Positions 8,868 to 59,422 of a stretch of 64,000 nt of DNA are shown here, piece after piece. Each line of letters begins with the position of its first letter. Position 1 is the stretch's first letter. Made by a program: the position numbers and the translations under genes. The notes beneath the pieces were generated by a model that did no database searches, was not told the DNA's origin, and saw only the letters and a list, made by a program, of their open reading frames with translations. The stretch comes from Allacma fusca (Eukaryota > Arthropoda > Collembola > Symphypleona > Sminthuridae): assembly GCA_947179485.1 (NCBI GenBank), contig OX359245.1:55663067-55727066 (forward strand), written 5' to 3'.

Positions 8868-9195
8868 ATTTACGTCTCCAAACCATTGGCTTTCTGGCCG
8901 ACCAATCGTGAACATATGGAGATTATAATTGTTATTACATTGGGATGATCGCTTAATTTTTGCATCAAATTCAAACCTCGAATTTGTGATATCGGCTGCA
9001 GGCAAAGATGCATAATTGAATCACAGTACATATATCCTTCCTTTAAATGATATCAATATATTGTCCTACATTTTCCTATATCTAGTATAAATGTCAGTAT
9101 CGAGCCCTACCTATATGCATATATTTTAAAATCATGGACAACTCTGCCTTCCTATATATTCATATTTCCTATATAGGTTCCTTTGACATACAACA

Positions 9196-10024
9196 CGCAT
9201 GCTTAAGTAACTTATTTTCTAACATGCAGTTGTGGCTTGATAACATTTATAGATGGATGAGTGACAACGCCCTTTCTATAAGTACCGACAAAACCATGTA
9301 TGTAGTATACCACAAATCAAATTCAAATATTCTGACTGATTGTAAGCTTTTTTTTAACAATGTGGAAATTCATAGGGTATGGTCTTTCAAATATTTGGGC
9401 ATAATTATTGACGAGAAACTTAACTTTAAGGAACACTGTGACTCTGTGACTAAAAAGGTAACAAAATCCATGGGTGCAATCATTCGGGCCAGAAGATACC
9501 TTAATGAGAGTGCTATGAGACTTGTAATTAACTCATTTGTGTTATCACATATTGACTACTGCATACTGGTTTGGTCCTCAGTCTGTAAAACTAAACTCGA
9601 TCTATTGCAGCATAAACTTGATAAGTTCCTACATTTGCTTCACTCCGGTTCCAGGAAGCTCAAGTTCTCCAATACTTTACCCTACATGTATGAGAAATAT
9701 AATGTTCTGAATGTATACGAGCGCATAAGTCTGTATAGCAATAAGTTCATATTTATACTGTCGCATTATGGCCACTGTGTTGACTACATTAATGGTGTGT
9801 ATGTTGCTAAGCTTTGTCTCTCCAGCCTTCGTTCTGCTTCTAGCATTACTCTCTACCATCCAGTTGCTAAATGTAGCATCACCCAAAGGAATATTATGTA
9901 TAATTGCGTAAAGCTTTGGAACTCGTTGCCCAGTGAACTACGTGCACACAATGGTATTTTAAGTGTATTTCTTGGAATGTTAATTAAACAAATCTTGTTG
10001 AAACGTAAGGATACTGTAATTTAA
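9196..10024 (+). pseudogene. LINE C ORF2 C-terminal fragment
   Basis: An open frame of about 275 codons that starts after the RT catalytic motifs. It is collinear with LINE B from about LSNLFSNMQLW. Shared blocks are RVWSFKYLGIIIDEKLNF, LSHIDYCILVWS, KLDKFLHLLHS and YHPVAKCSITQRNIMYN. This is the thumb and C-terminal part of the RT polyprotein; PHD, endonuclease and YADD are absent. The frame itself has no internal stop, which suggests a young insertion. Confidence 0.82.
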
Positions 10025-10149
10025 ATGGGAATTTCTGATGATGACCTGGCCTGTATTAATGTCTGTTTTTTAATCTCAATGTGGTATATGTGTGTCTGGG
10101 ATGAAAACCAATACCTGTGTATTGATTGTTTTTGACACTTGCAATAAAG

Positions 10150-10188
<39 letters not shown>
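9196..10188 (+). mobile_element. LINE C: 5'-truncated copy of the LINE B family
   Basis: Begins inside the RT region and ends with GATGAAAACCAATACCTGTG, an AATAAAG-containing tail and a long (TAA)n run (about 10151-10188). A possible 7-bp target repeat, ATGCTTA, occurs at 9199-9205 and 10187-10193; this is weak. It is inserted within the hAT-like element 9003-10546. Confidence 0.8.
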
Positions 10189-10189
<1 letters not shown>

Positions 10190-11183
10190 CTTACAGTATC
10201 CCTTAAAGAAACGTTGGAATTGCGTATATCGTTGGCTAAATTATAAAAAGTACCATTTTCGATGCACATCCCATTTAAAAAGCACGTGTTACGAAATGAA
10301 ATGGTACCTTTTAAAATTCAGCCGACGATATCTTCATTAAAAAGCCAATGTAGGCCTTTCTCATGGCCCTTCCTATTTCCTACATACGTACTTTTGCTCG
10401 GAAGGAGGCTTCCTATCCTATCCCTACTTTTAATTATTAGATTTTTCATGCCTTCCTTTTCCTACATATAAATTCTTGCAAAGTCCGTTCCTATCCTATA
10501 AATATGCCTATTTGTAGGATCCTTGTAGGAAGGAAATGCATCTTTGGCTGCAGGTAAGAAATCTCGAGTTGATGTTCACCTGAGACAGAACATCTGTGTA
10601 CGCGTGCAATACACATGAAGGACGAAGATGTTTTCGATCTGTGTTGAAGCTGGGTTCCATTCTACAAACAGCATATTTTCAAGAAATGCAACCATGCTTC
10701 TGGACAATTTGAGACTGTCTTTTCTTTTAAATATTCTGAGTTCCATCACGTTAAAATCTTTGTGTTTGGGGTACAGTAAAATTACGTAGTCTCGTTCCGG
10801 TTTGGAGGTAATGACAATTAAGCCGGTACTACTCTCCCAGTACAGGGTTTTGCCTTTTTACCAGTTTTTCGGAGCTTTTTCACCAGCAAGTACAATTTAC
10901 AGTTACATTTGCCCAATTTTGTATCCTGGGTCGGATTTTCCAATTTGTGATAAATATTATTGGATGAAGGATTCTGTGTGCTAATTTTAAAACTGACAAT
11001 GCTTGGTTTTGTTCAATTCTATGGTTCATAGATGTACTTGAATTTAAAATAAGTTGGTAGGTGTCTAATAGATATAACCATAAAATTGGAAAGAAAAATT
11101 TATTCACCTTTGAATGAATCGACATTAAAAAGAAAAGAAATTATAATCAATGACGTAAGACCTACGCCGTAAATACATTACAT

Positions 11184-11444
11184 GTTAAATTTTAGACTAA
11201 ATGCCAAGTCGTTTCGACGAACGGCAATGACTACCCTATTCCTAGCTCAACAGGTTTTCCATATTTTTTAGCCTTTAGGTCAGCACACAAACGTAAAACA
11301 TTTAAGTAAATAAATTTTGCGTTATAAGTAGATCGATTATTTTCTTTTCCGAAATGTAAAATGATGATGTATATTCACGATTTCCTTTAGCTGGTATAAA
11401 GTTTGATTCGGCCGGGAATTCGAAATTAACCTTTCCAATTATAG
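11184..11444. repeat. Duplicated 5' flank, IR-C/IR-D type
   Basis: Matches 33545-33800 and 43775-43990 immediately upstream of the IR-C and IR-D starts, for example ACTACNCTATTCNNAGCTC and CAGNACACAANNGTAAAAC. It may hold IR promoter elements, but no TATA box or initiator could be assigned. Confidence 0.65.
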
Positions 11445-14029: not shown

Positions 14030-14746
14030 ACTTGCAGGATCCACCAGTCCCTACCTTTTTCAGTCCAAGTCAAAATCAGTCTTAAGTTTCTGATCAGTCA
14101 GTCAGTCCATAAGTCTGTTTGCCCTTTCCCATGAGTCCCAGTCAGTCAAAGTCATTATCAGAGTCACTGGAATCAGTCACAGTCACAGAGGGAGCGTGAA
14201 AGTTTCAAAAATGCCTTTTTTTTGTGACTTTCTTGTGCTGCATTTGAATACAATTGATGACCTGGAATCTACTTTTGTAAAATACTATTAAAATCTCCAA
14301 TATTTTCAATTTGATGGTTCGAAATATCTCGCGACATGATTTAAAATTCTTAGTGAGTATAAGTTTATCAAAAACAGAAATACTGATTTGTTCGAAGCAC
14401 ATAAGCTAATCGAAGTTTCCACTTTGGCAGTTGCTCGTCCTTCGCAACCGATGTGCAGCATCGGCACTTTAGCAATGCAAAACCATGCCTTGTAAGAAAT
14501 GAAATGTCGATTTTTTTCTCCGCTAGATGCGGTACGTATTCTTTATGATTTTCTTGTTTCCTACATTGGTTTACGCGTTCGTCTCAGTCTCAGTCAGTCA
14601 TGCTGAACCAGAAATAAGTCTAAGTCAGTCAAAGTCTTTAGCTGCAGGTAGATTTATCAGTCGCAGTCTCAGTCAGTCATCAGTCAGTCACTAAATGTTG
14701 CAGTCAGTTCTTCAGCATCAGTCTAAGACAGGTCTATCCTGACTTG
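14030..14746. mobile_element. Inverted-repeat element with CAGTC word array
   Basis: The body is about 14035-14741, opening CAGGATCCACC and closing GGTCTATCCTG, inverted with two mismatches. Both arms consist of CAGTCAGTCA-type words, with a non-word middle at about 14200-14560. The flanks share ACTTG (14030-14034 and 14742-14746), a possible 5-bp TSD, shorter than the 8 bp of its neighbours. No coding sequence was found. Confidence 0.55.
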
Positions 14747-15002
14747 TAGTACATTTTAAGGAAATTCAGTTGAGCCTATCATCACCATTCCAAGGCAATT
14801 GTTGATGTGTCGGAAACTGAAAATGTGAGTAACGTTTATTGAGGTCTGCTTAAAACGTCAATTTGTGTCAATAATTCCTGATATTAAATCAGTCAATTCG
14901 AAACTCTTTTCAAGCAGATTGTTCTTCAGAAGTCGTCGTTTTTAGTTACGTAAATCTTTTTTATCGTTGTTTCAGCACGTTTGTGATAACTGAGAAGTAG
15001 AG

Positions 15003-15760
15003 CTGGGGACCGGAAGCGGGTTTTTGGATTCGGGCCGACCCGAACCCGGCCCAGCCGGGTTTTTGGCCGGGTTCGGACTGTAAATACGAACTTACGTCGG
15101 GCTCCGACCGGGTTCGGGCTGCACTAAAACAATGAAACCGAGTTAGGATCGGGCTTGGGCCTGTATTTATTTTTCAGTTCGGGTTTCGGGCGGGCCACAA
15201 ATTACAAATGACCCGACAATCCTACTAGAATAGAATTTAGTGCAGATAGGTGGCATACATATTTGACGTTGCGCAGAGTTCAATCGTTGCTTTCACGTAA
15301 TTGTGCATATTTATGAAAAATAATAGTTCATTGTATTTAGTACGTATACACATGCTTAAGCATTTTGAAACGATCCCTTCCGCTTGATAGTTTATGTTCA
15401 AAAATTTTCAGAGCCAAAAAGAAGTTTTGCTCCTTTTGAGCTCGCTTATTGAATGTGATGAGTAGGAATGGATAGTATACGTATGATGTAAATATAATAG
15501 AATATGTAAACAAAGGCTTCACATCGGATTCAATTGTTACTAAAAAGCCGGGTTTCCATCGGGTTTTAAAACCATTTAAAGATCTGGTTTTTACCGGGTT
15601 TGGGCTGTAAAAAATTTTGGAGACCGGGTATTTAACGGGTTCGGGCTTCACAAAATTTAAGGTCCATAAAAGGGGTCGGCTTGAATATCAAATATTTAGC
15701 CCGTTGGCGGGCCGGGTCGGGCTAATAGAGTATTTGTTCGGGTTTTGAACTTCCTAATAG
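15003..15760. mobile_element. CCGGGTTCGGGC word-array element, right end unclear
   Basis: It starts TAGAGCTGGGGACCGG, a hAT-like TIR style, and is filled with CCGGGTT/GGTTCGGGC words at 15010-15200 and 15545-15755 around a plain middle. No matching inverted end is visible; the right side abuts another word-array fragment. Confidence 0.5.
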
Positions 15761-15774
15761 GGTATAGTTACACG

Positions 15775-16034
15775 ATACTCCCAAAAGGACTATTATAAGA
15801 ACATTTATAGGGATATATGTAGGTAGGCATCTCCCTGTTTCCTATATTATAGGAAGGAACTTCGTGTTGCTTTAGCCTTTATAGGATTTGAGGAAGGCGT
15901 TTCGTTGAACATTTCCTTAAAAGCGGGAGATAACTTGACGAGGATAATAATTATAGGCAAATAGGGAGGCGTATTATTTTAGTTTAATTATAGGAAGGAA
16001 ATAGGCTAGGTGAATTAAAAGGCCCATCTTTGGT
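15775..16034. mobile_element. Partial copy of the CCTTCCTATA element
   Basis: Shares TATAGGAAGGAA-type words with 9003-10546 and ends GCCCATCTTTG, equivalent to that element's ATGCATCTTTG terminus. The left terminus is not found. IR-A 3'-flank sequence resumes immediately to the right. Confidence 0.5.
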
Positions 16035-16320
16035 CCACATAATATGCACATAACGAAAAACACTCATAAGCTGACGTAAACATGTACATACACTTCTGAA
16101 TCTGTTTTTGCAGATTTGATTGGAGCATTTATTTTTCATTCTATTATCAAAATCTCACTTTAATGAAAGAAAAGACTTGTTAATTGCATCTCCGATATAT
16201 GAGAAAAAAGCAACATTTGTTAAAACCCGATCCGTTAAACACCATCACATTAATACTTTAAATTTATTTGTGTTTTCGTATAGATTTTCAGAAGCGGAGA
16301 TTAACACTAGACATTTAAAA

Positions 16321-18426
16321 TCAATGACGATAATCAATTTTCGTACAATGATCCCATGATCGTATTCCATCAGCAGGTCTGACTTGATGAACGGGAGGAG
16401 GCTGAGGGAACTGTACCTTCCAAAATTCGACAGAAGAAACAAAACTAATAGTTTGATACATTATGGTTGAACATTTACTTCGAAACTTTTTGCTTAAAGA
16501 TTTCATTCCCACCAACTCCCACAAATGACAAATTCCAGTAATACACAAAAATGCTAGAAACATGACAAACGTAATGCTGGTTTGCGTTATTGATAACTGT
16601 TCTGAAGTACCGTGTGATCGCATCAATCTTTGTGACCCTTCATCTTTAAAATAATCTTCAAGCAGTGTCACCTCCAAAATATCACTTATCATATTATCAG
16701 TTAACTCAACAAATAGTTCTATGACTCCTGTGGCAAGAAACTGATGTGCAATAGAATATAAAACAGCGGCATTTGGGTTATAAAATCTCCAAAAATTAGG
16801 TAACATAGTATATGGTTTTAGACCCTGGAAGCAGTAAAGGCGAGGTTTTATTAAATTTAAATGGGTCGCCACAGACTTCACGAATTTGTTGCTTTCCAAT
16901 CCGCACGTTTTTTCTGTTCTCATTAGGAAATCATAATAACCTCTTTCTGACGGATGATGAACTTGCGCTAGGATTTTCGTCCTATTCCGCAATCCATCAA
17001 TGTAAGACACATTTCCGGAGAAGTGATGCTCGTTCAAAAAATACTCATCAGAATACTGTGAGGGTACAGCAGGCGTGTATTCGTTTTCAAATAATCCCTT
17101 AAAATCATCTATTCTTGCGGGTATTGTTGGGGTAACCAGAAGACTCTCAATAGAGGCTGAATATACATTACTCAGTACAATTGCAAAATAATTCCACAAC
17201 GTGAGTAATGGGATCAATTTTGTTGACGTTCGTGGTTGGGAAACAAGAGTAGCAAGAGCTGTAAACACTGGGTGTTTTATTGACGCTTCCGACTTGATGA
17301 CTAACGCCATCAAACAAACGGATAAACCAAGACAGGTCCAGGTAGAAGCGTCAATTGGGCGAAAGAATGCTGGTGGGTTTATTTTCAAGCTCTGAGTGTC
17401 ATTGACGAAATAGAAGAAATTATACTCCGCATAGCTTTCAAAAAAATTCATTGTGTGTTTTCTAATCGGTGATTTTGTTCCATAACCCCCGTGTATTCCT
17501 CCCATTTTTTTATCGCCTGTAGCCGTTCGGAAAACACCTGTAGCGTTTAAAACCTTGCTCATTGAGGCGTAAATAATAATAACCAAATCCTGAGATTGTA
17601 TTTTGTCACCTAGTTTCCCGAGATCTCGGAAAGTCCAGCTCTGGATTCGTTGCTCCCAATTAGCTTCTTCTAACTCCTGCCCAGAAGGCTGACCAAGCAT
17701 TAACTTATGACGATTATAGTTGTAACTCCAGTGGGATGATCGCTTAAGTTTTGCATCGAATTCAAACCTCAAATTTGTGATATCGGTTCCAGGTAACAAA
17801 TCATCGGTTGATGTTCGCCTGAGACACAAAACCTGGGTAGCCGTGCAATACACATAAAGGACGAAGATGTTTTCGATCTGTGTTGAGGCTGGGTACCATT
17901 CCACAAACAGCATGTTTTCAGGAAATGCAACAATTTTGCTTGTTAATTTTAGACGAACTTCTCTTTTAAATATGTCGAGTTCCATCGCGTTAAAGTTCTT
18001 GTCTCTGGGGTACAATAAAATAACGTAGTCTCGTTCCGGCTTTGAGGCAATGGAAATTTTTTCTGCACTATTCCGCCAGTTTATAGTTTTGCCTTTTTTA
18101 CCAATTTGTCGAACCATCTTCACAAGCAAATACAGTTTACAGTTACATTTGCCCAATTTTGTGTCTTCCGTTGTTGGTCGGATTTTATCTTCTGTAATAA
18201 GTGCAACTGGATGAAGCATTCTGTGAGTTAGCTTTAAGACCGACCGTGCTTGGGTTTGTTCATTTCCTTGGTTCGTAGCATTAGGTGAAATCAAAATAGT
18301 TTCGCAAATGTTTAGTGGAACCAAAATATGTGAAAGAAATATTGTTTGAGGCTTAGAAGATGCAGTATTAAAAAGAGAACAAATTATGATCAGGGACGTA
18401 ATACACACACTAAAAATGCGCTCCAT
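16321..18426 (-). CDS. IR-A: divergent ionotropic receptor (iGluR-like), intact
   Basis: A 701-residue single-exon protein starting MERIFSV, the start shared by all copies. It has a hydrophobic signal peptide (1-24), a long extracellular region (25-360), M1 at about 363-378 and a short pore segment. M3 at about 403-430 ends VYSASIESLLVTP, the slot where iGluRs have SYTANLAAF. The second ligand-binding lobe is about 435-605 and M4 about 611-640. N-glycosylation sites include NAT near 294, NVS near 472 and NRT near 481. By family, such receptors are ligand-gated, chemosensory-type cation channels in the plasma membrane; the ligand is unknown. A possible polyadenylation signal (AATAAA on the minus strand) lies at 16263-16268. 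The closest copy is IR-B. Confidence 0.85.
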   Translation of the reverse strand: MERIFSVCITSLIIICSLFNTASSKPQTIFLSHILVPLNICETILISPNATNQGNEQTQARSVLKLTHRMLHPVALITEDKIRPTTEDTKLGKCNCKLYLLVKMVRQIGKKGKTINWRNSAEKISIASKPERDYVILLYPRDKNFNAMELDIFKREVRLKLTSKIVAFPENMLFVEWYPASTQIENIFVLYVYCTATQVLCLRRTSTDDLLPGTDITNLRFEFDAKLKRSSHWSYNYNRHKLMLGQPSGQELEEANWEQRIQSWTFRDLGKLGDKIQSQDLVIIIYASMSKVLNATGVFRTATGDKKMGGIHGGYGTKSPIRKHTMNFFESYAEYNFFYFVNDTQSLKINPPAFFRPIDASTWTCLGLSVCLMALVIKSEASIKHPVFTALATLVSQPRTSTKLIPLLTLWNYFAIVLSNVYSASIESLLVTPTIPARIDDFKGLFENEYTPAVPSQYSDEYFLNEHHFSGNVSYIDGLRNRTKILAQVHHPSERGYYDFLMRTEKTCGLESNKFVKSVATHLNLIKPRLYCFQGLKPYTMLPNFWRFYNPNAAVLYSIAHQFLATGVIELFVELTDNMISDILEVTLLEDYFKDEGSQRLMRSHGTSEQLSITQTSITFVMFLAFLCITGICHLWELVGMKSLSKKFRSKCSTIMYQTISFVSSVEFWKVQFPQPPPVHQVRPADGIRSWDHCTKIDYRH

Positions 18427-18939
18427 GTTAAGTGGTATAAAAAGACAAAATCTTTATAGCTCCTGAGATTACTTTCGAGAAGCAGTAATATCCTGTTTTC
18501 CCCCCAATAAATTTAGTACACTATACCTGGCTTGTCAAGTTTTGTCTATTGTTTCTTGTCCTTATAAGTCGATTAATTCAAAGAAATGAAATCCAATACT
18601 AAAAAATATCTACACTATTACTTCAGGTCGAATTTAAGTAAACATTGAGCATAAACAAATCTAAATATTGCATGGATATTTGTATTTGGTATCCAATGTG
18701 ATGGCACCGTCACGCGGACAAATTTACATGTCTAAAAGAATCGTTCATGTTAAAATTTTCTGCATGTTTTGGGCATACCACTGGGAATTACATGATGGTT
18801 TTGCTTAAATCAGACAGAGTTTCGCTTACTGCAGCTGTTGTAATTATATTTAAGTATTGCGAATTTTTAATGTACTGGCTTCATTTAACTGGTGTTCCCA
18901 TTAAATTGGCATTATTAAATCATATCCAGGATATTTGTA
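18427..18939. other. IR-A 5' flank
   Basis: Matches 29570-30145 upstream of IR-B, differing from the IR-C/IR-D type flank. Shared stretches include CTGGCTTGTCAAGTT and TTTGGTATCCAATGTGATGG. It presumably holds the promoter; no core motif could be assigned. Confidence 0.55.
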
Positions 18940-19667: not shown

Positions 19668-20051
19668 CTGGACTACAGGCACTCCGGAATAAGGGGGACG
19701 GGAGGGACACTTTCCCGCCCAAAAAATGTCTGGGAAGGACAAACAATACAACTGTCCCCCCTACTTTTCAGGTACTAAATTAATTTTGTCCTGACTTTTT
19801 CTGTCAAAACTGCAGTAAAAACTGCAAATCCTGTGTAAATCGCTATTAATTGTATTTAAAAAACTTGAAGTTCTTGAAAATCGAGAAAATCTGTACATCA
19901 GATGTTAATATGAGCTAGATAACTTAAAATACTGTGTTACCTTATAAGTACGTACAAACGTTTATATGCACTAGCAAAGTAGCCAAAATTAATTAAACGT
20001 TTTGTCCCCCCCCCCCACTTTTTCGGACGTTACGGTGTGCCTGCTCGACTA
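19668..20051. mobile_element. Short hAT-like inverted-repeat element
   Basis: The body is 19676-20043 (368 bp) with TIR CAGGCACTCCG/CAGGCACACCG. The flanks CTGGACTA (19668-19675) and CTCGACTA (20044-20051) match at 7 of 8 positions. The paralogue near 8380-8400 reads straight through GGACTACTCTTGTGCC, giving an empty site. Words are GTCCCCCC-like. It includes a C9-11 homopolymer near 20008-20017. Confidence 0.75.
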
Positions 20052-20814: not shown

Positions 20815-21052
20815 CAGTGTCGGGCACGGTATCCGTACTCGAAGTGCGGGTATTGCAATATCTGGTATCTGTACCCATACCCACACCAGAGTATCCGGGT
20901 ACAAATTTGCCATACCCATGCCCGCAATATAATCTGAAACCTGTAATCCCATTGTACCCGTACCCGAAAAGTACTCGAAAATTGTATCCATACTCGGGTA
21001 ATTATCTCGGCGTCGTACTCATACTCGTACCCGTGTACGTTATCCACATTTA
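20815..21052. mobile_element. Fragment of a GGGTACGGG-type element
   Basis: Begins CAGTGTCGGGCACGGTATCC and consists of TACCCG/CGGGTA words. No right terminal repeat is seen, so it is probably truncated. It interrupts DNA that matches the IR-D 3' flank near 41590. Confidence 0.5.
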
Positions 21053-21191
21053 CATAAAGGTGGTTGTTGTTGGTTAATATATGTTGGTAATTATGTAGCA
21101 AATTGAATTACTACATAGCATCACATATTTTAGTACGTCAAACAAATATGATTTTTTTTAGTTTAAAATCTTTTCCAAAATTAAATTATTT

Positions 21192-21636
21192 CAATAAATC
21201 AGGGGTCGGATTTATGTAGGAAGACGGGAAGAATCTTCCCAGGGAAAAAATTTTTCAGCAGGGAAATTTTCAAACGGGATTGCAAACAGGGATTTTCAAA
21301 TCTGTTGACCTTTTTTGGCAGGTGTTTTATTAAAAACAATTTTTGTCAGCAGGGATTTTTGAAATCGTTGAGGTGTTTCACTGAAGATAATTTTTGTCAA
21401 CAGGGATTTTCGACATTGTTGAGGTGATTTACGAAATAGAATTTTGGTCAACAGGGATTTTCAAATTTGTTGACCTTTTTTTCAGCAGGGATTTTTGAAT
21501 TTGTTGGGTGTATTACAAAAATTGTTTTGTCAACAGAGAGTTTTAAACTTGATTCGAACAGGGACATCTTGACCAGCAGGGAAAATGAAAAAAATCTTCC
21601 AGGGAGATTTACAAAAATCCGACCCCTGCAATAAAT
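21192..21636. mobile_element. hAT-like element with CAACAGGGATTTT words
   Basis: The body is 21200-21628 (429 bp). Ends read CAGGGGTCGGATTTATGTA and, inverted, CAGGGGTCGGATTTTTGTA. The TSD CAATAAAT is perfect at 21192-21199 and 21629-21636. The interior repeats (C)A(A/G)CAGGGATTTT. Related pieces occur at 40646-40860, 45784-46023 and 60575-60699. Confidence 0.88.
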
Positions 21637-22649: not shown

Positions 22650-23601
22650 GTTCACAATAAGCATGAGATCGGTTCGGATAAAACACAAATCCGAACCGTA
22701 ACCGAACCGAACCGAAGTTTTTGGTTAGTTTTTTTTCAAAATCCGAACCGAACGGTTTTGTTCGGACAAAAAAATTCTCCTATCCGGAACCGAACCGTCA
22801 TACATCGGTTCGGATGATTTTCATAACCGAACCGTTTGTCGGTTATCCGAATAACCGAAACAATATTGCGCATTTTACCAGCGAAAACTTCATTCGAAAT
22901 AGATAAATATATATTAAAACCTTTTCTGAAAATCTTTGTTTAAAAAAAATGTCGTTCAAACTTAAAACAATTATTACACTAGTTTTTATCAAATTCAAGC
23001 TATTATTTAACTTCAAATGACAACTAAACACCTAAGGTCCAATATCTCCTGTAAGACCAAGTGGTCCCAAACCTCACTTTTGCTCATTGCTCCCGGTAGT
23101 TTGTGCCCCTATTACGGAGTCGGAGGTTTCCACTGATGGCATATTAGTTAGTATTAATGCAATTATTTAATTTAAGCTAAAAATTAAATAATGCTGTTTG
23201 AAATAATTTCGATGTGGTGAACAAATGTAGGCCTGCTCGTGGTCCATGCGTTGTGCTTTCTAAATATATTGCAGATACAGAACGAAACAATCGTTTGTCT
23301 CGAGAAATTCATGCTACAGACGTTCTCGATTACGATTTCCTAAATATTTTAGAAGCGAAATTCAAAATCGGTTATCCGTCGGTTTAACCGAGCGGTTACA
23401 TTTACTTAATCCGAACCGATCGGATAAATTCATATTTAAAACCGAACCGATCCGAAACCGATATCCGGTTAGGCACTGACGTATCCGAACCGTTCGGTTA
23501 TTTCAATTCGGTTACGACTGCTCTAACCGAACCGTCGGTTTCGGTTAACCGATGGTCGGATAACCGCGTTAAACCGAACCGATCTCATGCTTAGTTCACA
23601 A
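22650..23601. mobile_element. hAT-like element with CCGAACCG words
   Basis: The body is 22658-23593 (936 bp). The TIR is perfect over 20 bp (TAAGCATGAGATCGGTTCGG) and the TSD GTTCACAA is perfect at 22650-22657 and 23594-23601. Arms at 22660-22860 and 23370-23590 are made of CCGAACCG/CGGTTCGG words. The middle is ordinary AT-rich sequence with no transposase. Confidence 0.92.
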
Positions 23602-23722: not shown

Positions 23723-24436
23723 ATACGGACTAGAGCATCACCCCGTGGGATATTTTAGGCCCGTGGCTCGTAACGTTTTACCCGTACCCGCCCGGCCCGA
23801 AATTAATGTTTATCGAAAAAGCCCGGCCCGGCCCGCAAAATTAAAAAAAGCCCGTAGCCCGCCCGCAAATACAATACATCTTATATAGATACTGAAAAAC
23901 TGTATTTTAAAATATTGGTGTTCTTGACTGTTACATACACTCGTTAAACTACCTTGTTTATTAAGAAGGCAATACAAAAGCTTATGCTGCTATTTCGGCT
24001 TTGGTAAGCACTTCTGGCGGCGTTCTTGAATTGAAAAGCAGGTATGCAAGAAAGCTTTTCTTGCATACCTGCTTTTGTTATTTAGTAACAGTCGTACAGA
24101 CGGGCACGGGCCTAAAATATCACACGGGGTGATGCTCTATCGTACACCAAGCCTTAGTTTGTTTGAAAGCTAAAATTGCAAACGTCTGAAATTCGTTCAA
24201 GTCATTCAAGTCTTTGTGCATTCACAACCGCTGCTCCTGCATTCACAACTCATAGAATTTCTCACGGGCTTTTACGGGCTTTCACGGTCTTTTTTAACCG
24301 CGATGAAAAGACCGTACCCGCCCGTAACCCGTCAGACGTAATAATTTTTACCCGCACCCGCTCGAAGCCCGTGCGGGCCGGGCTTTTTGCGGGCTTACCC
24401 GTAAATTTTAACCGCCCGAGATGCTCTAATACGGAC
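23723..24436. mobile_element. hAT-like element with GCCCG words
   Basis: The body is 23731-24428 (698 bp), with TIR TAGAGCATC and a perfect TSD ATACGGAC at 23723-23730 and 24429-24436. Arms are dense in GCCCG/CGGGC words. The middle contains a strong hairpin. A second, partial copy begins at 48424. Confidence 0.9.
24034..24076. repeat. 20-bp perfect hairpin inside the GCCCG element
   Basis: The arm AAAAGCAGGTATGCAAGAAA (24034-24053) is followed by loop GCT and its exact complement (24057-24076). It sits centrally in the 698-bp element. Confidence 0.9.
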
Positions 24437-25662: not shown

Positions 25663-27347
25663 GTTAAAACCAGGGCTGGAGTATTCGAAAAATATGGATA
25701 CGATTCTGATTAGGATTAACCCTTAAGGATTCCAATCCCAATTCAAATGTATTTGTTTCCAAAAATAAAAATTCCAATCCAATTTATTCGAATATTTTCT
25801 ATGAATTCCAATATAATTCAAATACTTTCGTTATTAAATATTAATAAATGGAGGTACTAGATTCCCGAAAAACATTGTAACTTTGCAATTAAATTTAAAC
25901 CAGAAAGTATCTAAATTCGGCAATTATGAATGAAAATATTCCAGCTCATTTTATAAAGGCATTACTGCTAATCTACACATGTATCATAACCGTATAAAAC
26001 TTGTTGATTCACTTTGTTTTACAGGGATATTCTAGCAAGGATGGGAAATCGGAAAAATATGAATTCTAATTCGAATTAAAATATTCAAGGCGAAGAATTC
26101 CGATTTAAAATACTTATAGCAATACTGAAAAATATGAATTATAATACGGATTTAAATATCCTCGAGTATTCGTTCATTATGAATTCCGATTTGAATATTT
26201 ATTTGAATACCCCTAGTATACTGAAAATACAAAGAATTTAATTATGGAAAAAGTTCAACCTTAGAAACATGATATCATGAATGTTTTGGGAAGCTAGTTT
26301 CCCCCCCAGGTCACTGCGTATAAATTTAAGAGCTGAAAAAACACGTTAAACTGATATTTGAACTCCAACATTACTAATTTTCTTTCGGCCCATTTTTAGT
26401 TACCTACAAAAATTTTAGTATCAACGATTTAAATTACTTGAGTAATTAACTTGTACGACAAACAATAGTTTTGAGCACAACCGGTAAAAGCCTCTGACAA
26501 GTGCTAATAATTTGACTCTATTTTACGTAGAATGCGGAAGCATGTTCATTTCGGACGAAGAAAACGTTCGCCAATGCTCTTTGATTAACTTTACGTTGTA
26601 GGTAAAAAATTGCGACAATTTTAAATTTATATTTAAGTATGTACACTTGATGAAATATACCATTGAAAGCAATATTTTATTTTAATCGGAATTCATTAAA
26701 AAATATTTGAATACCAATTCGGATTCCAAAAATCTTTTTGAATGCGATTTTGAATTAAAATACTTTCTGGGAATTATTTGGAATTCTAATATGAATTAAA
26801 ATCCTCAAATTTTTGAATATAATTCCGATTCCGATTCCAATACCGATTCCGATTCCCATCCTTGTATTCTAGTAGTAAAACAGTGAGCTGCATGCTTTTT
26901 CCCCTGACAAAATTAGATTACTTTTTACCAATTGAGAAAAATCTGACAAATGAATTCATTGCACACAGCTTGCAGCAAATTGATTTCCAAAAAAAATTAT
27001 TAAAGTTGCTCAGCGTCATTTTGTGGGGACGAACATAATAATAAATTTTGTATTCCAATGAGTAGTTTAAAAAGGTATGTAATGGCTGACTGAAAACTTA
27101 TTTTGTTGTTTGAATTTACGAGATAAACTTTGAAATGTCATGGATTTTTCGGATATTTAAGCATTGGATACAGTATTCAAATATATTTTGAATACTAATT
27201 CCAATACGGATATTTCTTTTCGATTCAATATAGATTTAAATACTTGAAAAAATATATTTACAAATACCAATTCCGATAAAAATACCAAAGAATAGAAATG
27301 AAATACCGATTCCAATTCCAATTCGAATGACCAGCCCTGGTTAAAAC
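25663..27347. mobile_element. hAT-like element in the IR-B 3' flank, ATTCGAATA words
   Basis: The body is 25671-27339. The ends CAGGGCTGG are perfect inverted repeats, each followed by ATTCGAA within a few bases. The TSD GTTAAAAC is at 25663-25670 and 27340-27347. The IR-A 3' flank has the intact site GTTAAAACCCGATCCGTTAA at 16218-16237. Another element (26036-26864) is nested inside. No transposase was found. Confidence 0.93.
26028..26872. mobile_element. Nested hAT-like element with GAATTCCGATT words
   Basis: The body is 26036-26864 (829 bp). The TIR is CAAGGATGGGAA and the TSD TATTCTAG is perfect at 26028-26035 and 26865-26872. Arms carry AATTCCGATT/GAATATTTGAAT words. Its left 465 bp recur at 52325-52790. 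Confidence 0.92.
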
Positions 27348-36724: not shown

Positions 36725-37235
36725 CTCTGGTCTAGTGTTTCTGAACGGTACCAAAACATGGACTCGTCCCGACTCGTTTTCCCGAACCGAAAAAAATCCC
36801 AATTCTGTTCCCAAAACCGGAACCGGTATTTTCGAGTCCGGGACATTTTTGGTTTCCCGGAACCGATCCGGTAAATAAAAGCGGTTCCCGAACCGGTTCC
36901 GGTTCCTTTCCGAACAGTCAGAAAATGTATATGATTCATTTTTATGGAAGCCAAAATTGTATTGCCTTTTCAAATGATAGTTGACAAATGCTGGCCAAAT
37001 GCAAGTTTCGCGTTTTCATACAAAACGGCAGCTTTAACAAACCATTCCCGAAAACTTTCGGTTTTGATTTTTGTACCCGAAACCGGACCGAAATTTGACG
37101 GTTCATAAACCGATGACCCGAAACCGGACCGAAACGTAACGGTTCTTTAAAAAGTTGACCCGAAACCGTACCGGAACCGAAACCGAACCGGAACCTCGGG
37201 AATTCCCGATACCGAACAGAAACACTACTCTGGTC
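36725..37235. mobile_element. hAT-like element with GAACCGG words
   Basis: The body is 36733-37227 (495 bp). The TIR is TAGTGTTTCTGAACGGTA/TAGTGTTTCTGTTCGGTA and the TSD CTCTGGTC is perfect at 36725-36732 and 37228-37235. Arms consist of CCGGAACC/GGTTCCGG words. No coding capacity. Confidence 0.92.
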
Positions 37236-38761: not shown

Positions 38762-39839
38762 TTAATAATGTTGAGCGTAGGCAACTGGAGCAGCGACCTT
38801 TGCAATAGCTGGGGCGGCATAGGCACCGTAAGCTGGTTGAGCATAGGCGACTGGAGCAGCGACCTTAGCAATAGCTGGGGCGGCATAGGCAGCGTAAGCT
38901 GGTTGAGCGTAGGCAACTGGAGCTGCTACCTTAGCAATAGCTGGTGCGGCATAGGCAGCGTAAGCTGGTTGCGCATAAGCAACTGGGGCAGCGACCTTCT
39001 TCACGACAGCTGGGGCGGAACGGTCGACGACGGCGTTGAATCCGTTGATATCATCAGCGGTGTAAGTGACGGTACGGACAGCACCATCGGGCTCAACCAA
39101 AGAGTATTGTCCTTGGACGACATCTCCGCTGCGGGTCTCAGTCGCGGACTTGGAGTCTCCGGTCAAACCATCAGTGACGGAGTATCCATAAGAGTATTGT
39201 GGGTTGGGGTCGTAGGGCTCGGCAACGGCAACTGATGACCAAATTTTTGAAAAAAGGGTATAATTTTAAAAAATTTCCAGATTTTTTTTTATCAAATCGT
39301 CCTAAAAATTTCGTTTTTATTACCCTTGGCGACTGGGGCCGCGTAGGCGATGGGAGCAGCGACCTTGGCCACAGCTGGTGCATAAGCAGCGTAAGCTGGC
39401 TGAGCATAGGCGACTGGAGCAGCCACTTTAGCAATAGCTGGTCCGGCGGAGTAGGTGACAGATGGAGCTTGAGCGTAAGCAAGAGCTGGGGCGAGTCCAG
39501 CGTGGGCAACAGCCACGAGGCCCAAGAAAGCGACGACCTAAAAGACAGCAAGTATTTGTAGAAAAATAAATACACCGAGTATTATTTTTATTGTGAAATA
39601 ACTATTACGTTATATCAAATTAATTAATTAAATTATAAGTGTTACATCCCGCTCAAAACGCCTACAAATAATGCGGTTTGTAATAGCAGCAGGATGTCTC
39701 AATAGAACTGGACAAAGAAATATTAAAAAACGAAAATCCAGGATTACGAAAAACAAATAGGCACAAGGAAGATAAAATTCTGAAGTTGTATATAATAATT
39801 CCAAGAAAGTGAAGTCAGTGTTTCTACCTTTCCAATCAT
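38762..39839 (-). CDS. RR-2 cuticular protein, three exons
   Basis: Exons are 39828-39839 (MIGK), 39324-39537 and 38762-39231, with introns GTAGAA...TTTTAG and GTAATA...CATCAG; total 231 residues. After the small signal-peptide exon junction comes a hydrophobic [13 protein letters not shown] and an Ala/Pro/Tyr/Val-rich region ([17 protein letters not shown]). The Rebers-Riddiford RR-2 chitin-binding domain follows ([46 protein letters not shown]), then about four more [21 protein letters not shown] units. It is a secreted structural protein of sclerotised cuticle that binds chitin through the RR domain. The second intron is only 92 bp. Reading the first intron-exon junction outwards is essential, as the single frames look truncated. 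Confidence 0.9.
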
Positions 39840-43778: not shown

Positions 43779-44228
43779 GACGCTTTGTCTGACGTCCAGT
43801 TTACCGTTTGGAATTTACCCAAAACAATGACTACACTATTCTCAGCTCTACAGGTCGTGTCCATATTTCTTCATCCATCGGGTCAGTACACAAGAGTAAA
43901 ACGTTTCAACAAAACTTTGCGTTTCAGGTAAATCGATTGTTTACTTTACGGAAATGATAAATACATGCACGACTGCCTTGAGCTGATACATACATATACA
44001 GTTTGACCCTGTCGGGAAGTCGAAGTTAACCGTTGGTTCAAGCTAATAAATTAAATATTGAATGACTTTCAACATTTAGATTCCAATGTAAGCAAGTAAG
44101 CTTTTGAAGAGCACGCGCAGTTTTTGATATCCTGCGGGCGGGACGACTGGAAAATGTAAATAATTACTAACATGATACATTCCTTAGTGGCACTTTATTT
44201 GAGAGAAACCAACAGGACTTACAAATTA
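43779..44228. repeat. IR-D 5' flank (duplicated)
   Basis: Matches 33572-33850 and 11184-11430. No core promoter is identified. Confidence 0.6.
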
Positions 44229-49921: not shown

Positions 49922-50733
49922 TTAGTACAGTCTAGCACCGAGTCCAAGAGAAGAAATTCCGCCACCGATCAACTGTTGTGGAGCAATTCCTCTGGCAATC
50001 AACTGTTGTGGAGCGATTCCTCTGGCAATCAACTGTTGTGGAGCGATTCCTCCAGCAATCAACTGTTGTGGAGCGATTCCTCTGGAGATGTATTGTGGTT
50101 GAGCGATGAGTTGTTGGACAATTGGAGCAGCAGCAACCTTGGTCACAGCAGGAGCAGAACGGTCCACAACAGCGTTGAAACCATTGATGGAGTCCGCGGT
50201 GTAAGTGACGGTACGGACAGCACCATCGGGCTCAACCAAAGAGTATTGTCCCTGTACAAGATCCCCATTACGGGACTCAGTGGCAGACTTGGAGTCTCCG
50301 GTCAAACCGTCAGCAACAGAGTATCCGTAGGAGTATTGTGGGTTTGGGTCGTAAGGCTCAGAGACAACGGACTTGGCCACAGCCACTGGAGCAGCAACTC
50401 GGGCAAGACCTGGAGCACCAATGAGCCCATAAGGACTGGCGAGTCCAGAGAGTCCTCCGTGAGAAATAAGTTGGGCTTGGGAAATAGCCACAAGAGCCAA
50501 AAGAGTTGCGATCTACAAAAGTAATAAAAATTGCATACAACAATTAATAATCCCTCTTTTCTATTTTTTATCATTAACACGTTTTTAAAAGGAATCCACT
50601 TTTGATTCAAATTTCAAAAATCCGGTCTTAAAAATATGACAATACATAATTCACAGCATAATGCATTCAATATATATAATAACATAAGCATTCAAACGAC
50701 AAAAGTCATTTGAGACATTACCTTTCCGACCAT
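49922..50733 (-). CDS. RR-2 cuticular protein, two exons
   Basis: Exon 1 is 50722-50733 (MVGK) and exon 2 is 49922-50512, joined by a GTAATG...TTGTAG intron; 200 residues. A signal peptide ([17 protein letters not shown]) is followed by a short linker and the RR-2 domain: [50 protein letters not shown]. The C-terminus has four near-identical ten-residue units, [10 protein letters not shown], in place of the Ala-rich repeats of the gene at 38762. It is a secreted, chitin-binding structural cuticle protein. The same MxGK first exon in both genes supports common origin. Confidence 0.92.
49966..50102 (-). repeat. 30-bp tandem repeats in the cuticle gene
   Basis: About four units of 30 bp, each containing GCAATCAACTGTTGTGGAGC and encoding [10 protein letters not shown]; in frame. 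Confidence 0.88.
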
Positions 50734-50840: not shown

Positions 50841-50869
50841 TCAAAGAAGAATTTGAAAAGTGACCCAGA

Positions 50870-53683: not shown

Positions 53684-54376
53684 TTATGGCGCAGTGCTCG
53701 GACTGGGTACCGGTAATACTCGGGTAAATGGGTACGGGTATGGGTACTACCCGGGTACAGAAGTTGCGTACTCGCAAGTACACGCGTACTACCTGGGTAC
53801 TCTGAATTTTAGACAATAAAGTGAGTAAAGGTAGGGGTATAACTCAGTGACAGTCTGGTCCCAGCAAACAAATAACGTCCTTGGGACATAGTGTGGATGA
53901 CCCTGGCAATTGTCCCCCTCTTATCATTGACGGGCCGGTATATACTCAGGACATTTTTATGACATACTAATGTCCACCCAAAACTGATCCTCAGACAGAA
54001 CTGCGGAGTAATTAATACGACGTCCTGAGGAAATCATTTTCCGATAACACTTGTACATACACTATTACTACCTCAGGATGAGTATGGGTGTATGTACACG
54101 TATGGGTGTGCAGAAAATGAATAATTCCATAAAACAATAAATAAATAATGTTAACAATCAAAAACAATTCATTTCGTAACAACGTTTATTAATTTTAATG
54201 TTCACATACCACATTTGCTTTAACAAATACCCTATTGAAATTCGTCACGGAATTGTTTTCTGATTTTGAATCCAACAGTGTGGGATAAGTTTAGGTAACT
54301 TTAGACTTCCTCACCCGATAAAATATTCTCTCCAACCTGCTAAAAGCATAGCAAATATTTATGAAATAAAAGTGAG

Positions 54377-55976
54377 TTATTTATTTACATATAACAACAA
54401 GGTAGAGTAATTCCTTAAATTACACATGCTTTTTGCCTTTCCGGCAATTCTATCCTTTGCATGACGAAGCCAACTGTCAATGCTGGACTTGACATCGTCT
54501 CGAGTGATCGTTCCCGCATTTTTTGCTGTTTTTTTCACAGATGCTGAAAGATTCAAACAGTTAAAAAATATCTACTAAGAAGGTTAATGGAATAATTATC
54601 CACTAACAATTTGAAATAATATTTTAAATGTTATTGACATTTTAAATAATACAGTTAGTAGGGTTACTATGTAAATACACCCCCAAGATTGATATCCCGA
54701 AAAATAATCAGGGCCGTAATTTTTATTACTTAATTGCAGTTCAAAAACCTCAGAAGTTAAATCTTACCATAAATTAATTTAAGAAACCCAAGCTCTGAAA
54801 AACTCCGGTTTCCGCGTAAACCACACCAACTGTAGCCCGTCGCAAGTGCGTCAGTGAGTAGGTCCGTAAAAATTGCAGCTACGTGCAGAGATGCCTTCCT
54901 CCCTCCAAAAGAGCTAAACCACTCAACCTGAAAAGTATTGCTAAAAGCTAGACACTAATGTAAAACCTCCCGCTGCAGATTGTCTGGAATAATATAATAA
55001 CTAATAATAACAGCTTACTGTTTTTAATTTCAAAATTTTGTCACCGTCAAGAGTCCGCTTAAAAGCTACCAGTCATTGAAAGGAAAATTCTCAAACCCCG
55101 AATCGTCAATTGCAGCATGTGCCTCTGTTGAGCTCCTGAGTAAATATACCTTAGTCTCCAGTCGGTCAAGTTTCAATTTCACATCAGCCAAATACTCTAG
55201 GATCTTGATTTGGAAACCTGCAGATTAAGAAAATAAGATAGCTAGAGCAACTACAAAATTTTAACTCATATCAAACTTTATTGAAAAAAATTACCAGCAT
55301 CTGGTCGTGTAATTATAATTGAATGAGTTTCATGACAACCGTCGGTATTCTCCAAGACAACACCGTTGATTTCACTTGCGTTGTCAACTGGACCCGAGAT
55401 TGAAGCGAAGTCCAATGTGCTGCCAGACTGGTTTTCAAAACTGATCAAATTTTGTTGTGGTTCTTGATTCATAGTACCCATGGTACTGGATGTGGACTGA
55501 AAACTGATGGGGGTGTAATTTACTAAATCAGTTGAATTGGTCAATCGTTTTCGAGGCTAACTGGATTCCTGGCTGGAGATAAACGAACGCTTTCTGAAGT
55601 AGCGCGAATTGCCCTGGTCCTCCTCTGTGTCGCTCAATTCCGATGTGTGTGTGGAGATGTTAAGTTTACTCCGTGCAGCCGTATATGTATCTATATAACT
55701 AAAGCAACTGAATAAATAAGGGTTCAATTTCGCTACATTAAAGTGCATTATTTATTTTAAAAAAACATTATCAAAAATCTTTAGAACTTCTGCTTTCCAT
55801 TTACTCCAATCATCCAATCTTGTGGACAGCTCTACCGATTGAACTGCTCGTGAAAGTTTGTGACTATTAGAAGACAATGGAGGCCAAATACAAAATTCGT
55901 CGTCCAATATCCATGCTCGAGGCACAACAGCAACGGCATCTTTTTCTTCAGGAAACTTCACAATACAAAACATCAT
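54377..55976 (-). pseudogene. DUF4806-domain protein, multi-exon, damaged
   Basis: Exons by splice signals: about 55757-55976 (MMFCIVKFPEEKDAVAVVPR, CIWPP), 55295-55698, 55019-55217, 54768-54927 and 54377-54549. The last three form a DUF4806 domain: a KILEYLADVKLKLDRLETKV coiled segment, FPFND, then VEWFSSFGGRK, LLTDALATGYSWCGLRG, FSELGFLKLIY and SSIDSWLRHAKDRI. Donors GTAATT, GTAAGC and GTAAGA are paired with CAG acceptors in phase. Damage: an in-frame TAG at 55557-55559 and a one-base deletion near 55070. The first intron could not be resolved. DUF4806 has no established function; its position next to a transposase suggests an accessory protein of the element. Confidence 0.7.
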
Positions 55977-57929
55977 AAATGTATCAAAGACACTGCTACA
56001 AAATAATTGTTTTCAGGAATTACTAGCAGTTTTTTATCAATGTCTGTTATATCAAAATATGACAGAGTTTCGCTTGGATTAATTAGTTTGTATAATCCAA
56101 TTACTGATGATTTTATTGGGCAGTCAAAATAGTTTACACTTTTCCACACTTTTCCAACCAGGACAGTTGCAGTTTCAGAATGACAAAAATTTAACACTTC
56201 CACTACAGAACCACTTTTCAAAACACAAAATTTGTCATGGCTGTTAATTGATATGTTGGAAGTTTCACAAAAATTTAAAACTTTGTACTGCGGGTCACGT
56301 AAACCTGGAAGCATGGGCCCATTAAAATTCCTTCTCTCCAAGAGCTCTCTTGTCTTTGTTCGTGTAAACGGCGATTAACTTGTTTGATGGAAAAATTGGG
56401 CTTGCGCAATAAGCGCTTTATAACGCCTAACCAATTCTCGAATGGAAAGGCGCTAAATTTATCAAGATGCCCATACAATTTGACATCATCTGCTAAATGC
56501 AGAATTCCATGCAAATTCCATGAAAGATTTTCTTTTCCAAGTAAAATTTCAAAATTCCTTACAAACTCATTAATTAACTGCTTTGCCAGTTCATTATAAG
56601 TCATACACAACACAGGGTGCGCTAGTATGCGGCACGCAATATGCAATGCAAGGAAAATTTTGTAATGATCTTCGGGTAAAATATTTTTTAAAACGACGAC
56701 ACCATAATATAATAAAAATTGTCTTAGTTCCGTTGCTTTATATCTATCAATATCTCTCAATGTTCTCGGTTTCCGGTTAAATTCTGTACACGTAAACTTA
56801 TCACATTGTAATAATCTATTGGAAACTTCATCAATTTGTAAACTCGATAGCCTACAATAAATATAATTCATAACTCCTAAACATAATAGGTGCATGTATT
56901 CATAAGGAAACGAGTCAGCAATTTTTATATTTAAAGTTTCAATACAACTTGTTCCGTTATAATGCTCCTCCTGCTGTCTATTTCGGAAATTATTTTCGTT
57001 GCGAATTTCGCTTTGATGACCAGAAAATACTACGCGATTTTCATAGTATTCCCCTTTTATTTTACATTTTAGACATGAATAATATCCACTATGGCCTTTT
57101 GTGCACGTAATGTAGGATCGAGCTGGGGCATCACATATGAAGCATATTAGTTTGACATTAATTTGTTTTTCGCATATAAGCACTCCATTCGTTGTCACAT
57201 CCAGAAGTTCATCAACGAATTGCTTTAAGAAAATATTCACATCTTTAGGTTTCGAATATCCGCACCATAATCCTATCACAAATGGGTCACTTCGAAAATT
57301 ACAAATTTTTCCTAAAATAGGCCAAAAGGTTTTGGAGGTGCTTTTAGAGATTGGTATACCATCGATACTTATCTGAAGTAATATTTCTTTTAGGTTGGAA
57401 CCTTTGCTCTCTGTTAATTGAGTCAGATGGGCTTTCAATCCGCTGTGAAAATAAATTCCAGGCTCAATCGTGTGAACTGTGGTTGATGTAGGTGTGCATA
57501 GCAACGTACGAGTATCTTTTGGTAATTCAACGTAATTGTTGTCTTCTCTGAGAATGTTAGAAGATCCTTCAATGCACAATGAGTAATTTGATATTTGACG
57601 GCCCAAATTTGTAGTTTATATTTTAAATCAAATACATCAACCCTATGGTTGTCTTTAGAATCTTCTGAATCATCGCCTGAGTCATTTTCACATGCTACGA
57701 AATTGTAAAGTTTGTCGGTATTTTGTTCTTCATTGTAAACATGCGGACGTGTATAAGAAGGATCACTGTCTGTCGTATTTATGACACGTTCATTAGTGCA
57801 GTTCAAAGTACTCCGAGGGTTACCCGCAGGTGATGTAAAATGTTCTCTTAAAGATATCTGCTCCGTCTGTATTCTTCTTTTGAACTGTTTCGAACTGATG
57901 AAAATTGAATCTTGTTTTCTTTGACTCAT
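55973..57929 (-). pseudogene. TNP2-like transposase, two frameshifts
   Basis: Starts MSQRKQDSIF, with an acidic N-terminal region. Recognised blocks are LPKDTRTLLCTPTS, GIPISKSTSKTFWPILGKI, a cysteine-rich CDAPARSYI...CTKGHSGYYSCLKCK (first acidic residue), YEYMHLLCLGVM, FNRKPRTLRDIDRYKATELR, LHLADDVKLYGHLDKFSAFP and FENWLG. Frames change near 57563 (one base lost before ILREDNNYVE) and near 56340. The acidic residue before MH is Glu where, from memory, relatives have Asp (DYMH), so the catalytic triad may be altered. By family it would cut and paste the element as a DDE enzyme. It ends IHL, four bases overlapping the DUF4806 start. Confidence 0.75.
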
Positions 57930-59422
57930 TTTTAATTCAATAATATTTCCCTAAAAATGTTGTTCTCAGTCACTTAAACAAGAACTGGGAATTTAATTTA
58001 ATTTTGGATTAGGATCACTGATGAGCTAATAGTAGTACATATTTATAATAATATTCGAGTACTAACAATGAGAAATTGCGTCCCGCCTTTTAAACAATAC
58101 ACAACCTGTTTTACAACCTCAGGACGTCATTATAGGACCGTAAATAGATATCGGTATTAGTTATTATAATGGTATCGTCAACATGTTATATGAAATGCTC
58201 TAAGTTTGTCAGTAGTTAGCGTTTCCACAACAACCTGCAATAATAGTGACATCGCTCAAGCTGTCTGAGGATATCTTTTTATGGTTGTCATATTATGATT
58301 AAGATTTGGGAATACACGATATTGTCAGGACTTAAAATGTTTTCTGGGGTAGTACCCAATAGATACGGGTATCACTTTGTAAAATACCTGTACCCGTGGG
58401 TGCTTTACCCGAATATTTTTGGGTACTTCAAGGATTCCTGCTGGGATGGATTACTATGTCTAACAATAAGACCTACCAACCGTGGAGTTGCTTATTTCTT
58501 TTTATACATATATTTGAGTTAGTGACAGAGCCCCGTGGCTTCGTCTCATTGATGATTACGCGGTAGTTGCAATCTAACGCTTCTAATAAATCATCCCAGG
58601 AATCTAATAAAGGAATAGAGCGTAGAGTCAGTCAAATCGCCTGTTTATCGACTTAAATAGTGAAGCTCATAAAAGAAGAATTTCAAGGGGGATGTTCTTG
58701 AGATTCAATGTAATTAGCTTCATTGGGAGCGTAACATTAAAATTATTTAGACTTATTACGAGATAAGTTCGGAATTAATATACAATTATTATCAGATCCA
58801 TTTCTTAATGCGACAAGTACCCAGGGTTAGACATTTGAAAACGCCAAGGCATTTTATGCAGACAATTTGAGCATTTTCAATCCTGGGCATTTATGAAACT
58901 AAGTATTTATTGCAGTAAATTTTATAAAATTTTGGCATGAAAAATATCATTCCTTGCATGCAGCATTTATATTTCAGCCCCTTTGAATCTTTATGATAAT
59001 TTTGATGTTTAAAGAACTTGACAGGTATCTGAACTTGGCTTTCAAAACTTTCATGGTGTTGCATTTGAGTCCTATTTCGAATGCATTGGATGCATTAATG
59101 TCGGACTTGCGTTAAAAGATTTTTGAGAAAGCGATTAGCTGGGAACACAATTTTTTCATGTTTTGGAAGTTGAAAAGCAAGTTATGGAAAGCTTAGTATT
59201 AAAGAATTCGTCCTAATTGTTTATCCTTACACCATACAAGAATTGTTCAATAACTAATTCACGAGAACACATTTCAATGCATACAGCAAGTTATTATTTT
59301 CTCCTAATAGCATTTGAATTTCGTCAGTGTTTATTATTTACACTTTTATTTTATCGATATTTGGGTACGGGTATGGGTACGGGTACACGGTTTCTGTACC
59401 CAGTCTGAGCATTGTTATGGCG

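Follow-up and report, generated by a model that had tools for sequence, protein, structure and literature searches.

Putative transposase-binding word arrays in the arms of hAT-like elements from Allacma fusca

Elements, borders and target sites

We analysed a 64,000 nt stretch of contig OX359245.1 from the collembolan Allacma fusca (assembly GCA_947179485.1), here called the window, and searched the 392.7-Mb genome for relatives of nine transposable elements that lie in it. Each of the nine, F1 to F9, is bounded by paired terminal inverted repeats (TIRs) and a target-site duplication (TSD) of 8 bp, and most carry repeated copies of a short word in one or both arms (Table 1). As judged from sequence, these are very probably nonautonomous hAT elements resembling miniature inverted-repeat transposable elements, with arms that would act as subterminal arrays of transposase-binding sites.

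Table 1. Elements in the window, with their ends, target sites and words
Feature	Position	Strand	TSD	TIR	Word	Remarks
F1	9003..10546	.	GCTGCAGG	CAAAGATGCAT	TAGGA(A)/TCCTA	nonautonomous
F2	19676..20043	.	CTGGACTA/CTCGACTA (7/8)	CAGGCACxCCG		no word array
F3	21200..21628	.	CAATAAAT	CAGGGGTCGGATTT	CAGGGA, throughout element	51-bp tandem
F4	22658..23593	.	GTTCACAA	TAAGCATGAGATCGGTTCGG	CGGTT/CGGAT	nonautonomous; hAT on good evidence
F5	23731..24428	.	ATACGGAC	TAGAGCATC	CGGGT/GCCCG	
F6	25671..27339	.	GTTAAAAC	CAGGGCTGG	ATTCCAA/TTGGAAT	split by F7
F7	26036..26864	.	TATTCTAG	CAAGGATGGGA	AATCGGAAT	nested in F6
F8	36733..37227	.	CTCTGGTC	TAGTGTTTCTG	CGGTT/CGGAA	
F9	53692..59414	.	TTATGGCG	CAGTGCTCGGACTGGGTAC	GGGTAC	pieces 53692-53859 and ~58348-59414
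Inserted transposon	53860..58348	-				Transposase_21 (CACTA-like) frame; inserted into F9

All nine TSD pairs proposed in a first-pass annotation of the window were recovered letter for letter, the F2 pair CTSGACTA agreeing at 7/8 positions. When the window was scanned blind for exact 8-bp TSDs with TIRs mismatched at no more than one of 10 positions, 13 pairs came back, seven of them among F1-F9, whereas 20 Markov shuffles gave 0.8 on average. F2, by its imperfect TSD, and F9, whose TIR is mismatched at two of its first 10 positions, narrowly miss this filter. The TIRs are about 9-20 bp long, with one or two mismatches in F2 and F9.

Where they were tested, the ends given in the first-pass annotation stood, and its account of what lies between them required revision for F1, F7 and F9. 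F1's own sequence is confined to approximately 9003-9195 (the break was placed by eye) and 10189-10546. Its middle is a nested fragment of a long interspersed nuclear element (LINE) that includes the end of a reverse transcriptase; a stretch of 251 residues is 48% identical to the LINE lying at 4880-6496, and (TAA)n closes the fragment immediately before the right arm of F1. F7 is a separate element nested within F6, and F5 contains an inverted inner copy of its own left end. F9 had the appearance of an autonomous element of 5.7 kb, a candidate that we rejected since its Transposase_21 frame belongs to the foreign transposon inside it (query positions 169-4657), copies of which, 94% and 90% identical, occur elsewhere. 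F8 is a young element, its 40 scored copies being 96-100% identical. Nesting was also seen at two fetched loci: at L011, positions 237-3227 hold an element (TIR TAAGGTTCCTCACGGA, TSD CTCCCATG) of the type described below for the hAT gene H54, harbouring a copy of F9, and at L025 an F8-type copy (2835-3328) lies within a copy of F9.

Further genome matches exist for every family, copy counts per family referring to the best 40 candidates scored. Borders were examined in two ways. For F1, F2, F3 and F6 the query included flanking DNA, and the ends of matches elsewhere were compared; for F4, F5, F7, F8 and F9 the queries were flankless, and TIRs and TSDs were scored in the fetched copies. The flanked queries of F2 and F3 match elsewhere only to within a few bases of the element's ends on both sides, and those of F1 and F6 uphold the right border (right end only), a few partial copies stopping short; in these four families the 8-bp TSD was seen in the window copy only (7/8 in F2). 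Among the fetched copies of F4, F5, F7 and F8, 34 of 39 scorable TSDs are perfect and 37 are within one mismatch (1/40 was not scorable, and the TSD is missing from two copies of F5). With the window copy counted, the corresponding figures for F9 are 22/26 and 24/26; paired ends were missing at 4 of 30 loci, two of which are copies of the inserted transposon. Pooled over the five families, 56 of 65 scorable copies are perfect and 61 within one mismatch. Thus, where the borders were tested, nearly all fetched copies agree with the ends and TSDs read in the window.

When 68 perfect TSDs are combined across families and strands rather than taken family by family, the consensus is nTnnnnAn, with T at position 2 and A at position 7 in 62%. 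The same consensus is given for the Ac group of hAT elements, as cited in PMC8961557. The suggestion of hAT-type machinery, made originally from TSD length, is therefore supported by the composition of the target sites.

Word arrays in the arms

Repeated strand-symmetric 6-mers were counted in each arm and middle and compared with 200 dinucleotide shuffles. The first-pass annotation had described arms saturated with a family-specific word around ordinary middles, a description that suits F4, F7, F8 and F9, is weaker on the left of F1 and F6, applies to the right side only of F5, and fails for F2 and F3. The z-scores for left arm, right arm and middle are most extreme in F4 (22.9, 30.4 and -0.8), followed by F9 (11.9, 4.5 and -0.1), F8 (5.2, 8.0 and 1.0) and F7 (5.0, 6.0 and -1.4). 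In F1 they are 2.6, 7.6 and 0.8, and in F6 2.8, 5.2 and -0.2. F5 (1.0, 15.7 and 4.3), which holds the inverted copy of its own end, is enriched on its right arm and in its middle and not on its left arm. A word-enriched arm is thus present in seven of the nine elements, and both arms are clean in four. Across 12 measured arrays, the share of arm bases that lie in words is 13-48%; the words are irregularly spaced, and in several families occur on both strands. The idea that the words differ completely between families did not survive: CGG lies within the words of F4, F5, F7, F8 and F9 (five of the seven worded families), CGGTT is common to F4 and F8, and GGAAT to F6 and F7.

If the words are binding sites, they might be expected to change more slowly than their surroundings. 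Alignments of 11 copies each of F4, F5, F7 and F8 and 26 copies of F9, from which 25 bp at each end and CpG positions were excluded, contained 73 mismatches in word columns, against 142 expected by permutation within the same bases (0/4000 permutations; five families). The deficit is significant singly (P<=0.003) in F4 (17 versus 40 mismatches), F5 (3 versus 14) and F9 (48 versus 78). An earlier version of the test, using circular shifts and keeping the TIR, pointed the same way in each of the five families; its P values were 0/2000 for F4, 0.10 for F7, 0.024 for F8, 0.07 for F5 and 0.015 for F9.

Such arrays could also be degenerate tandem or satellite DNA generated by slippage or duplication, with no role in binding. 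True tandems do occur, in F3 (51-bp unit), in F8 (41-bp unit) and in the hAT element at locus L037, and the mean identity of 12-bp word contexts is slightly above that of shuffled sequence in most arrays, so some duplication contributes to them. However, pairs of contexts identical at 10 or more of 12 positions make up only 0-8% in 11 of 12 arrays, compared with 20% in the recent tandem of L037. The irregular spacing, the use of both strands in several families and the greater conservation of words than of spacers all speak against a satellite, as does the enrichment of arms but not middles in F4, F7, F8, F9 and five gene-bearing hAT elements (see below). Satellite DNA outside elements had been named as the alternative when the arrays were first noticed; the arrays lie inside elements and their spacers are mostly unrelated, so for the most part they are not satellite units. 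We consider the satellite explanation very improbable, and favour binding sites.

The strand on which the words lie was compared between the two ends by picking words on one arm and counting them on the other. GC skew, tried as a proxy for word orientation, gave little signal in most elements and was replaced by these counts. With 5-mers, the favoured strand is the same in both arms in 18 of 21 elements, opposite in two and tied in one; with 6-mers the numbers are 14, four and three. When one element per family is retained and F2 omitted (n=17; counted by hand), same, opposite and tied cases number 15, 1 and 1 for 5-mers and 12, 3 and 2 for 6-mers, giving hand-worked two-sided sign tests of approximately 0.0005 and 0.035, values to be read with caution, as families within a clade do not count as independent. 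In F4, F7, F8 and L011 the same strand prevails by a slight margin. Because the TIRs are inverted and the words are on the same strand, the two ends differ in word direction when viewed from the tip, and word polarity would separate left from right.

Six further arrays were noticed in the window, near 4.5, 11.9, 14, 15, 15.8 and 20.8 kb, and a search around them for a TIR with a TSD found none. A CAGTC/GACTGA array at 14040-14740 has both arms on the same strand, and its word is found also downstream of the hAT genes L117 and L121. At 15001-15770, about 770 bp are filled with CGGGTTCGGG words, mostly same-strand on both sides, for which no ends were found. The ATAGGAAGG array at 15800-16035 closes in CCATCTTTG, resembling one end of the group that contains F1 and the hAT gene H45; its second end was not found. 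An array of GGGTAC/CCCGTA at 20829-21073 has a counterpart, about 75% identical, next to the three hAT copies L041-L043, and a short AAATAC array at 4474-4595, with CAGAG-type ends by eye, is 78% identical to one near the hAT gene L114.

hAT genes, interpretation and neighbouring features

The genome was searched for the hAT dimerisation domain, and 150 of 860 candidates were scored, all above the family cut-off. On the 3′ side of 44 hAT genes, the highest 6-mer count of 40 random sequences was exceeded in 18 cases and equalled in seven. The clearest link concerns F4, whose first 206 bases have a 91% match just past a hAT gene at C1:71723100-71727400. This locus holds a 1839-bp element flanked on both sides by the TSD CCAGGATC. 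Both of its TIRs are those of F4 (20/20), each arm carries F4 words, and between the arms lies an open frame of 356 aa for the C-terminal part of a hAT transposase, within which the dimerisation-domain match falls. The element is a deletion derivative lacking the N-terminal part of the transposase; a second locus is 96% identical in protein, with one internal stop. As its TIRs, TSD and words bound a hAT transposase fragment, there is good evidence that F4 belongs to a hAT family.

The 5′ side was examined at seven more hAT loci, and both ends were found at five, which does not imply that the gene is intact; no 5′ end was found for the other two, H35 and H55. The TSD is perfect in four of the five: H54 (3339 bp; left and right arm z-scores of 25.9 and 34.4), H40 (3574 bp; 4.7 and 3.1), H38 (4206 bp; 3.8 and 5.0) and H32 (3954 bp; 3.3 and 3.7). 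H45 (3767 bp; 10.0 and 3.2) has a TSD of 7/8 and a poorer TIR. In all five the arms are enriched for words and the middles are not. H45 shares the word TAGGAA with F1, and its 3′ TIR starts CAAAGATG like that of F1; by these two features F1 is very likely a hAT element. F5-F9 are probable hAT elements by TSD and architecture, and F2 and F3 probable members by TSD and TIR only.

Other apparent partners were rejected. A match of 83% between the first 78 bases of F9 and sequence beside the hAT gene L032 had suggested an autonomous partner, but that hAT has ends of its own (CAGTGRTGGG, TSD ATCCTAAC) and the F9-like end lies inside it. Beside the hAT gene L050, the sequence that matches F3 is an F3-type copy in its own right, and F2's match next to L055 is unpaired. 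The transposases with matching ends that the first-pass annotation had proposed to look for were thus obtained for F4, as the 1839-bp element, and for F1 at the level of word and TIR start.

The same annotation had proposed that words switch as families diverge, and array content does follow transposase relatedness: among 17 nonredundant genes the Mantel correlation between transposase identity and array content is 0.62, a value matched in 0/5000 permutations. The 17 genes come from 26 loci, 25 of which passed the 3′ count rule and one of which (L032) was added by hand, with five positions hand-set. Array similarity falls to background once amino-acid identity between transposases is below about 50%. 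L112 and L116, whose transposases are 60% identical, have words in common with no DNA alignment reported.

Our data are best explained by a model in which each family is mobilised by a hAT transposase whose N-terminal DNA-binding domain docks at the array words. The TIR would be the place of cleavage, and the array would recruit transposase subunits. Since a nonautonomous element would move only if bound, copies with intact words may be favoured. As transposase lineages diverge, the preferred word would drift and the array would follow, as may be the case for AAGGCA, TAGGC, TAGGA and GAAGG in one group and CGGATA and CGGTTCGG in another. Of these words, AAGGCA is that of H40, TAGGA that of H45, GAAGG that of H38 and CGGATA that of H54. 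H40, H45, H32 and H38 have homologous N-terminal exons, which share the pattern CL..C...GW.....HLV with a variable stretch between GW and HLV, and by eye they resemble a zinc finger. The arrays that flank hAT genes and the conservation of words relative to spacers support the words as putative binding sites, as first proposed; the N-terminal domain would read them, and families without a matched gene are probably hAT elements too.

Two further explanations were considered. In one, the words would be promoter or silencer sites for transcription, whether of the element or of the host, and not aids to transposase assembly, which would fit with arrays on both sides of the transposase gene and with the G-richness of 16 of 18 3′ arrays on the sense strand of the gene. 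Yet gene-less elements keep and conserve their words, the words stand beside the TIR at both ends, and word type tracks the transposase; a role in transcription is the least probable of the alternatives. In the other, the nine elements would come from several superfamilies that are unrelated and have an 8-bp TSD, but no machinery, in common. Their TIRs do differ, and confined arrays are missing in F2 and F3, but nTnnnnAn is common to the pooled TSDs of F4, F5, F7, F8, F9 and others, F4 is tied to a hAT gene, and F1 shares its word and TIR start with H45. We regard mixed origins as improbable and a common hAT machinery as the better reading.

Several observations weigh against the binding-site reading, or against its generality. 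Word enrichment is absent from F2 (z-scores for left arm, right arm and middle of 0.9, 0.2 and 2.1), and in F3 it is found in the middle and not the arms (1.5, 1.5 and 6.7). Word conservation is not significant singly in F7 (4 versus 6.8 mismatches, P 0.23) or F8 (1 versus 2.5, P 0.22). Within 820 bp downstream, 19 of the 44 hAT genes remain under the random maximum, a few of these showing arrays further out. Among the fetched loci, the ends of F2, F3 and F5-F9 were not found around any transposase gene, and no gene-bearing element directly matches F1, which also favours mixed origins. Pfam does not detect a BED finger in the four homologous N-terminal exons (H40, H45, H32 and H38), H54 has only a sub-threshold zf-BED match (E 0.09), and the structure model of the N-terminal exon is poor (predicted local distance difference test, pLDDT, 51). 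Lastly, three of the loci in the Mantel test (L040, L045 and L114) drew their top word from a neighbouring array and had their positions reset by hand, and because several related arrays align partly as DNA, the correlation is in part plain common descent.

More broadly, and with rather more doubt than confidence, we suggest that each hAT lineage of this genome may write its own transposase's DNA preference repeatedly into its arms, that the choice of one strand may mark left and right, and that this polarity rule may be general for hAT elements. If so, the lineages would represent a natural selection experiment for the recognition code of zinc fingers and for the rules of word switching, and same-strand polarity suggests a simple and general means by which hAT elements could keep their ends distinct.

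The window also contains features other than the arrays. Four sets of minus-strand reading frames (16324-18453, 27473-29574, 31382-33589 and 41706-43814) are alike by eye and perhaps form a tandem cluster of ionotropic receptors; a Lig_chan match in 16324-18453, the one set of the four that was scanned, is sub-threshold. Frames resembling cuticular proteins by eye lie at 38765-39265 and 49925-50512, with tandem repeats of 66 bp and 30 bp. Two remnants of retrotransposons without long terminal repeats, at 603-4238 and 4880-8078, have split frames and endonuclease matches, and the latter has in addition a reverse transcriptase match and a sub-threshold PHD-like match.

Relation to known subterminal repeats

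The architecture, which the first-pass annotation put forward as a candidate for an undescribed one, is already known: subterminal repeats of hAT elements have been published for Ac, Hermes, Kat1 and CGGBP-like hATs. In literature titles and abstract openings, with most subscription journals uncovered, we found no survey of several saturating hAT words in one genome, which is weak evidence of novelty. What the present work adds is the link between F4 and a hAT gene, evidence that the words are constrained, the correspondence between words and transposase lineage, and the tendency of words to keep one strand in both arms. With about ten word types beside hAT genes in one genome, several of them weakly supported, and with measurable selection on the words, the co-evolution of a site and its DNA-binding domain becomes directly testable, which is hard with single model systems.

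In maize Ac/Ds, AAACGG hexamers in the terminal 200 bp bind the transposase, and three copies are reported to be required (PMC3260210). The Allacma families are similar in being apparently nonautonomous hATs with short TIRs and repeated terminal words; they differ in that Ac/Ds has one word, whereas about ten occur in the one Allacma genome, and about half of the arm bases of F4 lie in words.

In binding assays, hAT-19-like transposases and proteins derived from them recognise a variety of motifs through their DNA-binding domains; most of these motifs contain CGG, some are AT-rich, and for the four hAT motifs the matches lie in the subterminal regions of the element concerned (Yellan et al. 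2021, PMC8097297). The presence of CGG in five of seven Allacma words recalls these proteins, although that study consists of binding assays, mostly of host proteins, and the Allacma words are known from sequence alone.

The two ends of Hermes carry AAG(T/C) 17 and 14 times, and these copies are regarded as sites for its BED finger. At the left end the subterminal repeats STR2-7 run antisense, at the right end STR1-5 run sense, and asymmetry between the ends is called important for activity (PMC10368747). We read the orientation of these repeats as lying on one strand of the element, as in the Allacma families. Unlike Hermes, with its single 4-bp word, Allacma has several longer words, and the same-strand pattern is found in 15 of 17 families with 5-mers and 12 of 17 with 6-mers. 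Kat1 of Kluyveromyces, which is hAT-derived, has a subterminal TGAATT repeat whose polarity differs between the ends (PMC4763223). Kat1 is domesticated and has six exact copies, unlike the Allacma families, and shares with them subterminal repeats with a polarity that depends on the end.

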